Of a stretch of DNA of 64,000 nucleotides, positions 43,970-46,506 are shown piece after piece. The position numbers were made by a program, and so were the translations under genes. The notes below the pieces were generated by a model, which was not told the DNA's origin, searched no databases, and was given only the letters and a program-made list of their open reading frames with translations. Numbering within the stretch: position 1 is the stretch's first letter; every line of letters starts with the position of its first letter. This stretch comes from Fibrobacter sp. UWB13 (GTDB lineage: Bacteria; Fibrobacterota; Fibrobacteria; Fibrobacterales; Fibrobacteraceae), in NCBI RefSeq assembly GCF_900177805.1, contig NZ_FXAX01000001.1:1612001-1676000 (forward strand), in the 5' to 3' direction.

Positions 43970-44197
43970 AGGAGTTACCTCATAAAATTCGCGCCTAAAG
44001 ATAGAAACTTTCGTGACCGAACGCACAAAAAACGTAAAGCCAACACACAGGAAAAGCAACATTCCCCGCCCAATCTTCAAATGCAACAAAAATGTAAGAA
44101 ACGGACGGAAGGCAAGAGAAAGGAGGAAAATCACATTTTAATGTTATTTCTCAAAAAATGTTCTCATCTTAGTTCTCATAAATATTATATTAAGCAC

Positions 44198-45037
44198 GTG
44201 GAAAACTATATCGACATTTACCAATTTACGCACTTCCGCAAGTACTTGGAAGAATACCAGGCGGCTAGAGTCCAGTCCGACCCGGAATTCACCCGTACCG
44301 GAATCTGCAATATGCTCGGCCTCCCCAAGACACGTAGCTACTTTGCCGATGTTCTCAGAGGGAAAAAGGTCAGCCCCCGCATGACAGCCAAGTTTATCGA
44401 AGTCCTCGGCCTCAACAAGAAAGCCGCAAAGTACTTCGAAACGATGGTGAAGCTCGACCAGGCAAAAACCGAGACAGCTCGTAGCGCTGCCATGGAAGAA
44501 CTCCTGCACCTGCACCCGAATCCGCAGCATATCCTCGATTCGAACACATACGAATACTATAACCATTGGTACCATAGCGCAATGTTTGCTATTCTTGATG
44601 CTATGGACGTTACAGATGACTTAAACCCCGTACAAAAGAGAATCTTCCCGAAAATTCCACTAGGGAAGCTCAAGGACTCGCTCGCCCTTCTCGAAAAGCT
44701 TGGACTCGCCCGCAAGAACGAATCCGGTTTTTGGAAGCCGACCAAGGAATCCATCTCCAGCGGTCCGTACAACAATGCGGAACTCATCAAGCAGTACCAG
44801 CTGCAATGTTTTGAACTTTCAAAGCAGGCGCTCATCACGCGCCCCAAGATGCCGACCGTCATGAGTACGCTCACGTTCAGCATCTCGAACAACGCCTACA
44901 AGAAGCTTGAATCCGAACTCCAGGAATTCAAGGCAAAGGCAAGACGCATCATCAGCGAAGATAACGAAAAGGCAAATGGCGTTTACCAGATGAACCTGCA
45001 CTTGTTCTCTAACCTCGATCCGGAGGTTAAGGCATGA
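44198..45037 (+). CDS. TIGR02147-family (DUF4423) putative transcription regulator
   Basis: A member of a paralogous family first described from Fibrobacter succinogenes. With the GTG start at 44198 the product is 279 residues and begins MENYIDIYQFTHFRKYLEEY, the usual opening of the family. Residues about 25-65 (ICNMLGLPKTRSYFADVLRG, then KVSPRMTAKFIEVLGLN) look like a helix-turn-helix domain. The C-terminal part matches DUF4423, a winged-helix-like region. The alternative ATG at 44141 has AGGAGG but 14 bases away. It overlaps the downstream lipoprotein gene by four bases, so the pair is cotranscribed and probably works together. Confidence 0.75.
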   Translation: MENYIDIYQFTHFRKYLEEYQAARVQSDPEFTRTGICNMLGLPKTRSYFADVLRGKKVSPRMTAKFIEVLGLNKKAAKYFETMVKLDQAKTETARSAAMEELLHLHPNPQHILDSNTYEYYNHWYHSAMFAILDAMDVTDDLNPVQKRIFPKIPLGKLKDSLALLEKLGLARKNESGFWKPTKESISSGPYNNAELIKQYQLQCFELSKQALITRPKMPTVMSTLTFSISNNAYKKLESELQEFKAKARRIISEDNEKANGVYQMNLHLFSNLDPEVKA

Positions 45038-46506
45038 TGAATTTTAAGATTATAAATACAGCAGGGATTTTTGCCCTCGCATCGATTTTCTCCGCCTGCT
45101 CCGACGAAAACCACGCCGGCGTGCTCACGGAAACTGAATCCGGCACGACCATCGCAAGTATCGTCATCGACGGAAATGGCTCCCCTGTCGTAAGCGCAAG
45201 AGTTAGCCTCCTCTCGGCAAACCACGTCGCCACGCGCATGGCCCCCATCAAGACCGCCACGACGGACAAAGATGGCAAATACACCATCGACAGCGTCTCT
45301 GCTGGCGAATACGCCTTGCAGATTAGCAACACAGAGAACACGCAGTCCGCCTACCAGACGATCACAGTCGAAGAAAACAAGACCGACTTGCAGACCATAA
45401 ACGTCCCCGAAGCAAAGCTCGAAGAGAACGCAAGCCTTGAACTCGACCTCAGCACGTATGACCTCGTCAAAGGTGACACGCTCTGCATCACGGGTACACT
45501 CAGCTGCACAGGCGTGAGCGAAAGCGACATCAAGTCTGGAACCCTTACCATCGACGAAATTCCGCCCGCTGAATTCACGAACATCATTCTCATCAGAGGC
45601 TCCGGTCGCGACACAACGTCAAAGCACGTCAAGTGGGACTTTGTCCCTGGCGAAAAACTCGAAGTCTCTTCAGATTTCGTAACAGTCAACGTTCCTGAAG
45701 AAGCTTTGAAAGCCGCAAAGAAGTTGAACGGCAACAAGACGCTCGAATCCATGATTGTTCCGGTAACGATCCCCACGAAGGTAAAGAACCCGGTTCTCAT
45801 TGACAACAACGGAGACTCGCTCGCAGTCTTTAAAGCCGAAAACGATGCGGACTCGTCGCTTTACTTCACGGCAATTCCAAGCATTGACGCAGGCACATAC
45901 AAATTCTCAGTCACATCAAGCGAATCCGTTTACAAGACTTCGGAAATTTCTAGAGTGTTTGCCGAATCCAAATCAGGTTTGTCCGTCACCGAAGGTGATT
46001 TCATGAATACATTCATCACGGACACGTCAAGCAACAGCCTCGGCATCAGTTTCTGGATCGAAGAAGACGGTAGCAAAATCGCAGAAAGCGATTCCTTGTT
46101 CCTCGATTCCAAGGAAAACGACGTCACGTACCGACTGAGAACAGGTGAAAAGCCGGAACAGCTCTGCGCCAACTTCTACAGAAGAGTCTCAAAAGACACG
46201 ACGTATACGGATTCGTTTCCTGAACTCGGTAACTCTTACTGCCACGATGTCTTGGACGGGGAACGCCATCACTACGCCTTGTACATCAAGGCAAACCATG
46301 TCGTTATCGCCATTGACGGAAAGACCGTCGAAGACACCAAGATGAAAAACGCCTTCATCATATTCCCGGGCTTCGTCACAGGAAACCACAAGCTCAAGAA
46401 CCTGACCGTATTCTCGCTCAAGCAATCCGCAATCGCCCAAAGCGACGACAGCGGCTGGGAACGCCTGCAAGCCTGGCTCAACGCATACTACATGATGCAG
46501 AAGTAA
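45034..46506 (+). CDS. Surface lipoprotein with carboxypeptidase-regulatory-like domain
   Basis: A 490-residue lipoprotein (signal peptide ending in SIFSAC, C22). Residues about 40-110 (SIVIDGNGSPVVSARVSLL, then TTDKDGKYTIDSVSAGEYALQI) are a carboxypeptidase-regulatory-like beta domain. The rest is beta-rich and unassigned. Near residues 330-470 a segment (FWIEEDGSKIAESDSLFLD, then HHYALYIKANHVVIAIDGKTV) resembles a concanavalin/LamG-like sandwich; this is only suggestive. Its start codon overlaps the stop of the regulator gene. An intrinsic terminator follows. It may be the sensed or displayed partner of the regulator. Confidence 0.72.
   Translation: MMNFKIINTAGIFALASIFSACSDENHAGVLTETESGTTIASIVIDGNGSPVVSARVSLLSANHVATRMAPIKTATTDKDGKYTIDSVSAGEYALQISNTENTQSAYQTITVEENKTDLQTINVPEAKLEENASLELDLSTYDLVKGDTLCITGTLSCTGVSESDIKSGTLTIDEIPPAEFTNIILIRGSGRDTTSKHVKWDFVPGEKLEVSSDFVTVNVPEEALKAAKKLNGNKTLESMIVPVTIPTKVKNPVLIDNNGDSLAVFKAENDADSSLYFTAIPSIDAGTYKFSVTSSESVYKTSEISRVFAESKSGLSVTEGDFMNTFITDTSSNSLGISFWIEEDGSKIAESDSLFLDSKENDVTYRLRTGEKPEQLCANFYRRVSKDTTYTDSFPELGNSYCHDVLDGERHHYALYIKANHVVIAIDGKTVEDTKMKNAFIIFPGFVTGNHKLKNLTVFSLKQSAIAQSDDSGWERLQAWLNAYYMMQK

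Follow-up and report, generated by a model that had tools for sequence, protein, structure and literature searches.

Organization of the Locus

The window, namely the whole 64,000-nucleotide stretch of Fibrobacter sp. UWB13 DNA that was analyzed, carries two overlapping genes that encode a regulator of the TIGR02147/DUF4423 family and a lipoprotein, and these are preceded by a predicted operator. The features of the locus, all of which are on the forward strand, are as follows.

44148-44178, +, predicted operator with three copies of TTCTCA (44148, 44161, and 44173); no other block is conserved among the upstream regions of 46 orthologues
44186-44191, +, TATATT, resembling a -10 box and lying 6 bp upstream of the start codon; conserved with the operator, assigned by consensus match only
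44198-45037, +, TIGR02147/DUF4423 regulator gene, GTG start, 279 aa (NCBIfam, Pfam; model pLDDT 89)
44234-44407, +, XRE-like helix-turn-helix (HTH) part, residues 13-70 (helices of the model; weak HTH_3/HTH_31 matches in relatives)
44522-45010, +, DUF4423 domain, residues 109-271, including a winged-helix-like part (Pfam, model)
45034-45037, +, ATGA overlap of the two genes (sequence)
45034-46506, +, lipoprotein gene, 490 aa, lipobox cysteine C22 (sequence; CarboxypepD_reg, E=2.5e-11)
45115-45144, +, AGVLTETESG, the conserved tag (residues 28-37), located six residues past the lipidated cysteine (29 orthologues; disordered in the model)
45148-45399, +, CarboxypepD_reg beta-sandwich domain, residues 39-122 (Pfam)
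46036-46413, +, lectin-like C-terminal region, approximately residues 335-460 (fold matches)

The stop codon of the regulator gene (TGA, 45035-45037) overlaps the ATG of the lipoprotein gene by 4 bp, as the initial annotation had described. Based on translations read by eye, the pair is flanked upstream by NADH-dehydrogenase-like genes and downstream by an amidophosphoribosyltransferase-like gene. No SusC/SusD-like genes adjoin the pair, which is not a polysaccharide utilization locus by that criterion.

The regulator scored 283.9 bits against the NCBIfam profile TIGR02147 (Fsuc_second) over model positions 2-270 of 272, which is above the curated cut-off of 50 bits and makes it a full member, and it is also a member of DUF4423 (PF14394; E=1e-25, 90.8 bits, gathering cut-off 30). 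In the structural model, an XRE-like helical N-terminal bundle is followed by a winged-helix part and two long helices. The window regulator alone gave no significant HTH match in Pfam; weak matches to HTH_3 and to HTH_31 each occurred in 12 of the 60 family members, and the solved structures nearest to the regulator profile included C.BclI and a CI repressor, with weak E-values of 0.04-0.5. A whole-fold search of the PDB with the model returned nothing significant, the non-significant local matches including XRE, MarR, and HigA proteins. The model and the weak family and structure matches lend support to the HTH-like part that had been recognized from the sequence. They are consistent with a one-component regulator that would combine an XRE-type HTH with a winged-helix DUF4423 part and is predicted to bind DNA. 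The regulator has no membrane segment. An orthologue that is 99% identical to the regulator is present in a metagenome-assembled genome of F. succinogenes. A phage origin was considered and rejected, as there was no match to PHROG or to any phage record.

The product of the second gene has a signal peptide with the lipobox FSA-C22, the cysteine of which is kept in 29 orthologues. It carries a CarboxypepD_reg domain and was modeled as a mostly beta fold with a beta-rich body, which agrees with its original description as a beta-rich lipoprotein. The structures that its fold matched, at E-values of about 1e-6 to 1e-5, include laminin LG, galectin, CBM40, and trans-sialidase; the limits of the lectin-like region are approximate because the fold search gave no residue ranges and the boundaries were read from the model. 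The modeled fold suggests that the protein may bind glycans, and its fold and fast divergence only are what point to a surface location. No TIGR02145 match was found for it in NCBIfam at E<=1, and it is, therefore, not a FISUMP protein. Among the 29 orthologues of the window pair, regulators are 69-100% identical and lipoproteins mostly 25-35%. The lipoprotein bodies at orthologous positions look mosaic, with near-identical blocks after the tag being common to species that differ elsewhere (loci L038, L045, and L048 versus L039 and L041), as if they had been exchanged by recombination.

Recurrence of the Gene Pair

The genome of Fibrobacter sp. UWB13 contains 36 full-length TIGR02147 copies and one fragment, so that the expansion in Fibrobacter that had been noted holds. 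A lipoprotein gene lies directly downstream on the same strand, at a distance of -20 to +51 bp, in 35 of the 36 full-length copies (automatic calls for 33; R10 and R34 assigned by inspection). This arrangement is far more frequent than in the same neighborhoods at large: an adjacent same-strand lipoprotein gene was found for 29 of 31 TIGR02147 genes versus 24 of 112 other genes (Fisher p=1.3e-13). In a non-redundant sample of regulators, which came nearly all from Fibrobacterota with genomes from many families and classes added, a lipoprotein gene directly followed 203 of 212, a count in which the regulators are not independent because many are orthologues from related species. The most common gap in the 203 pairs was the 4-bp overlap (53 cases) that is present in the window. 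The nine unpaired regulators include one with a tagged lipoprotein 307 bp away (L165), one followed by a second regulator (L188), one cut by a contig end (L241), and the Bdellovibrio outgroup (L283).

These listings of downstream neighbors bear out the idea of a modular unit in many parallel copies, and the pair in the window represents one instance of a module distributed across Fibrobacterota. The restriction to one lineage that had been proposed is roughly right: TIGR02147 was present in 71 of 81 Fibrobacterota genomes and absent from some genera of the phylum, and the part that does not stand is strict confinement, given a divergent DUF4423 homologue in Bdellovibrio.

This homologue is encoded on plasmid pBdHAGR1 of Bdellovibrio sp. 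HAGR004 (L283:2989-4541) and its gene overlaps that of an exported protein by 4 bp; the partner has a signal peptide and no lipobox. The overlap suggests that Bdellovibrionota may have a comparable gene order; a single Bdellovibrio example cannot show that the pairing predates the phylum. In the genome of UWB13, R16 (L014, C1:1851373-1852188) is the sole full-length copy with no downstream lipoprotein gene, and an unpaired tagged lipoprotein gene (1854935) lies near it on the opposite strand, one gene further on. R37, the fragment, is a C-terminal piece resembling R16 that is located elsewhere (L030, C1:63152).

The Lipoprotein Tag

The paired lipoproteins of the genome differ in their bodies and share a short tag after the lipidated cysteine, with the consensus AGG-x-[ST]-E-T-x-N or, more fully, C-S-x(n)-[VLI]-A-G-[GT]-x-[ST]-E-T-x-N. 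When a profile built from 27 sequences of this genome was searched against the genome itself, all 30 top matches were in TIGR02147 operons, and these included second and third tandem lipoproteins that were absent from the profile-building set. Lower matches mostly comprised a signal peptide and cysteine only, namely ordinary lipoproteins. The one near R16 was the only tagged lipoprotein seen outside TIGR02147 operons in this genome. The paired lipoproteins of R12, R14, and R22 are among those with a weak or unrecognizable tag, and an untagged lipoprotein (C3:173864) occurs later in the R27 operon.

Among the 29 orthologues of the window lipoprotein, AGVx[TS]ETESG is invariant, and 8 of the 12 invariant columns of the whole protein fall within the ten-residue tag, which is located in a low-confidence, presumably disordered tether of the model. 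Third codon positions of the tag vary freely, which indicates that the constraint acts on the protein; a role as a DNA or RNA element was rejected on this ground.

One possible role for the tag is that of a sorting or surface-export signal and nothing more, with the regulator gene simply lying upstream. Like the export signal of Bacteroidetes lipoproteins (PMC5080379), the tag sits right behind the lipidated cysteine, whereas other lipoproteins of the genome, including later ones of the same operon such as that of R27, lack it. We regard this as a possible reading that is somewhat on the unlikely side.

Alternatively, the lipoprotein may bind a plant glycan outside the cell and signal inward, through the tag and an envelope partner, to the co-transcribed regulator. 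Near-confinement of the tag to TIGR02147 operons, its invariance while the body diverges, its place in a disordered tether, where a docking motif would be expected, and the lectin-like fold would all suit such sensing, which is an extra step on the explanation preferred below and not a replacement for it. On the other hand, the regulator has neither a membrane segment nor a known partner. Moreover, the similarity of tags and of bodies tracked that of the regulators to the same extent (Mantel r=0.283 and 0.286, respectively; 0.215 and 0.219 when each was conditioned on the other), which is what linked inheritance would give. Sensing across the envelope appears rather unlikely to us. A matching code between tag and regulator was rejected on the basis of the same equal tracking.

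A third possibility dispenses with a trans-membrane relay: the regulator may bind the tag of the unexported precursor in the cytoplasm and thereby gauge lipoprotein supply or export. Translational coupling through ATGA and the location of the tag beside the signal peptide would bring both partners together; we give this proposal very little credence. Several of these three roles could be compatible with the explanation that we prefer.

Predicted Operators

In the alignment of the 46 orthologous upstream regions, GTTCTCA, TTCTCA at a 12-bp period, TATATT, and the start codon are retained while the flanks drift. The conserved core of the predicted operator is the direct-repeat pair at 44161-44178 (TTCTCA-N6-TTCTCA), which most orthologues retain, with several having a single clear TTCTCA copy; the operator was the sole match in the 64-kb window and covers the -35 region of its own promoter. 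The short distance from TATATT to the start codon means that the regulator transcript is possibly leaderless. Within TIGR02147, 11 of the 36 genes have TATATT 3-9 bp before the start, compared with 8 of the 169 other first genes (p=3e-5; loci L001-L029), and this enrichment suggests that some family members are transcribed without a leader.

Related regulators have sites of their own. The promoter of the sister regulator R06, which is 63% identical, carries the site GTACTCA, one base different, in direct and inverted copies that are conserved in 12 of 12 orthologues; it surfaced in the own-genome search for the window site at three mismatches. The distant paralogue R02 has a TGTTC-type repeat whose conservation extends to other genera. 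No genome contained more than one strict match to this repeat, and where examined the match was at the R02 promoter. The presumed recognition helix (residues 47-53) is almost invariant among orthologues (entropy 0.07 bits) and variable among paralogues (2.15 bits). The two sites and the helix entropy favor binding of each regulator to its own site, and each copy appears to recognize its own operator, with conserved sites for three copies and extrapolation to the rest. The operator evidence as a whole thereby supports the predicted binding of DNA by the regulator. Since no lag clearly stood out in the promoters of the 36 paralogues, a repeat spacing shared by all was rejected, and the proposal of private operators rests on three groups. 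R02 was also considered as a second case of remote targets and rejected, as most genomes carry a single site, that of the R02 promoter itself; an additional R02-type site in genome G012 (L312) has no clear target.

Predicted Remote Target Genes

The predicted site of the window regulator recurs before a few distant genes. In its own genome, the pattern GTTCTCAN{3,8}TTCTCA had three matches (reversed-pattern control: 0), which were at the regulator's own promoter, 98 bp before the gene for a secreted GH74 xyloglucanase, and upstream of the gene for a secreted GH5 cellulase that is xyloglucanase-like, its nearest solved relatives including xyloglucan-active enzymes. The stricter pattern TGTTCTCAN{3,6}TTCTCA had 23 matches in 12 Fibrobacter genomes (control: 0), all with one identical spacing though four were allowed. 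All 23 were at promoters, namely those of the orthologous regulator (8), GH74 (4), and pectate lyases (11; nine of these proteins assigned by Pfam, those at L302 and L308 by near-identical sequences). In eight F. succinogenes-like genomes, TTCTCAN6TTCTCA had 19 matches (control: 1 in total), comprising 8 at the regulator, 7 at GH74, and 4 others that were chance-like or had no assignment; the regulator promoter had the site in 8/8 genomes and GH74 in 7/8, the exception being G006. As the genomes are related, none of these matches are independent. The most telling case is G004, in which GH74 is 78% identical and the site has a different spacer. In all six F. succinogenes-like genomes that have this GH5 gene, its promoter contains GTTCTCA-N6-GTTCTCA (13-bp period) along with one more copy, and it lacks the site in two distant genomes.

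Members of the putative regulon vary between species groups. In those Fibrobacter species that are more distant from F. succinogenes, the double site precedes pectate lyase genes and not GH74 (L292-L296, L300, L302, L304, L306, L308, and L310); with pectate lyases replacing GH74 as predicted targets, this looks like a rewired regulon. At the pectate lyase promoters, the site is in reverse orientation directly after a -10-like box. This position, and that of the site over the -35 region of the regulator promoter, suggest that the regulator is probably a repressor.

The analysis thus points to a private operator and a small remote regulon of xyloglucanase and pectate lyase genes, neither of which the initial annotation foresaw. 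The explanation that we prefer, and consider reasonably probable, is that a one-component regulator with its own predicted site controls its lipoprotein operon together with a few distant genes for wall-degrading enzymes. The regulator and tagged lipoprotein would be made from one mRNA; the regulator, presumably the TIGR02147 protein itself binding the TTCTCA sites, would read the GTTCTCA/TTCTCA direct repeats and autoregulate its operon; its further targets would be xyloglucanases (GH74 and GH5) in F. succinogenes-like species and pectate lyases in other Fibrobacter species; and the lectin-like lipoprotein would equip the cell for glycan binding or adhesion alongside those enzymes.

Because the link between the sites and the regulator is one of co-occurrence only, an unrelated regulator, such as one for a general response to plant polysaccharides, may bind the TTCTCA repeats, the TIGR02147 gene being merely a target. 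Against this stand the sister sites, which are one base apart and each conserved, the yet different site of a distant paralogue, and the regulator promoter as the one target common to all eight close genomes; we regard such an outside regulator as unlikely. The suggestion of surface switching in the initial annotation, here taken to mean that the copies supply interchangeable surface proteins of which a single one is expressed at any time, is in keeping with the many parallel copies and the fast-diverging, mosaic-looking bodies. It found no support here, as the operators differ between copies, the remote sites adjoin enzyme genes, and no inversion, recombination, or phase-variation element was noticed in passing, and we consider it highly improbable.

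In the own genome, the last domain of the GH74 target (L284:631-3189, contig C3) is a type IX sorting domain, Por_Secre_tail, and transport of the enzyme to the surface may therefore follow a type IX-like route.

Relationship to Known Systems

The models of the TIGR02147 and DUF4423 families give no function, and we did not find the lipoprotein pairing, the tag, or the operators described; no paper naming TIGR02147 was found, and one was found that names DUF4423. The preferred explanation would provide a candidate function for a family previously without any. XRE one-component autoregulators, such as the controller protein C.BclI, have an HTH of the kind predicted here, short repeated operators at their own promoters, and autoregulation, the last two likewise being predicted for the window regulator. 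The window system differs from these in its winged-helix DUF4423 part, co-transcribed lipoprotein, and remote enzyme targets.

The polysaccharide utilization loci of Bacteroidetes combine SusCD with SusR, hybrid two-component, or ECF regulators. A regulator, a glycan-binding surface lipoprotein, and wall-degrading enzymes under one control, as predicted here, are a common element. Unlike these loci, however, the window pair has no adjacent SusC/SusD-like gene, its enzymes are unlinked, and its regulator is soluble with no envelope sensor domain. If the module is extended to a phylum-wide set of parallel glycan-response units, in each of which the lipoprotein senses one plant polymer and controls, via the tag, the regulator driving a scattered enzyme regulon, signaling of this type would be distinct from that of two-component, ECF sigma, and SusR systems; we consider this extension quite unlikely.

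The tag, which is described in no source that we found, is comparable to the Bacteroidetes export signal, similarly a short conserved stretch beside the lipidated cysteine; relative to that signal (PMC5080379), it is longer, has another sequence, and is almost confined to the regulator-linked lipoproteins of the genome. A further resemblance is to the FISUMP lipoproteins (TIGR02145, Fibrobacter succinogenes major paralogous domain), the domains of which have been suggested as possible cohesin analogues: 8 of the 33 paired lipoproteins checked end in RC[ILV]K, which we take to be typical of that domain. The window lipoprotein, in contrast, has a CarboxypepD_reg and lectin-like architecture.

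Fibrobacter is a gut bacterium and a major cellulose degrader of herbivores. How it regulates its enzymes is the question on which the present predictions bear, with a family of approximately 36 copies, sites predicted at base resolution, and named target genes, and this question is now directly testable with one purified protein. The transcriptional control of cellulases was an unanswered question in the S85 genome paper (PMC3079729), and the text of the S85 transcriptome paper makes no mention of xyloglucan, GH74, or a regulator. In the envelope proteome of S85, four CarboxypepD_reg lipoproteins were lower on cellulose than on glucose, and our guess is that these belong to the tagged class.
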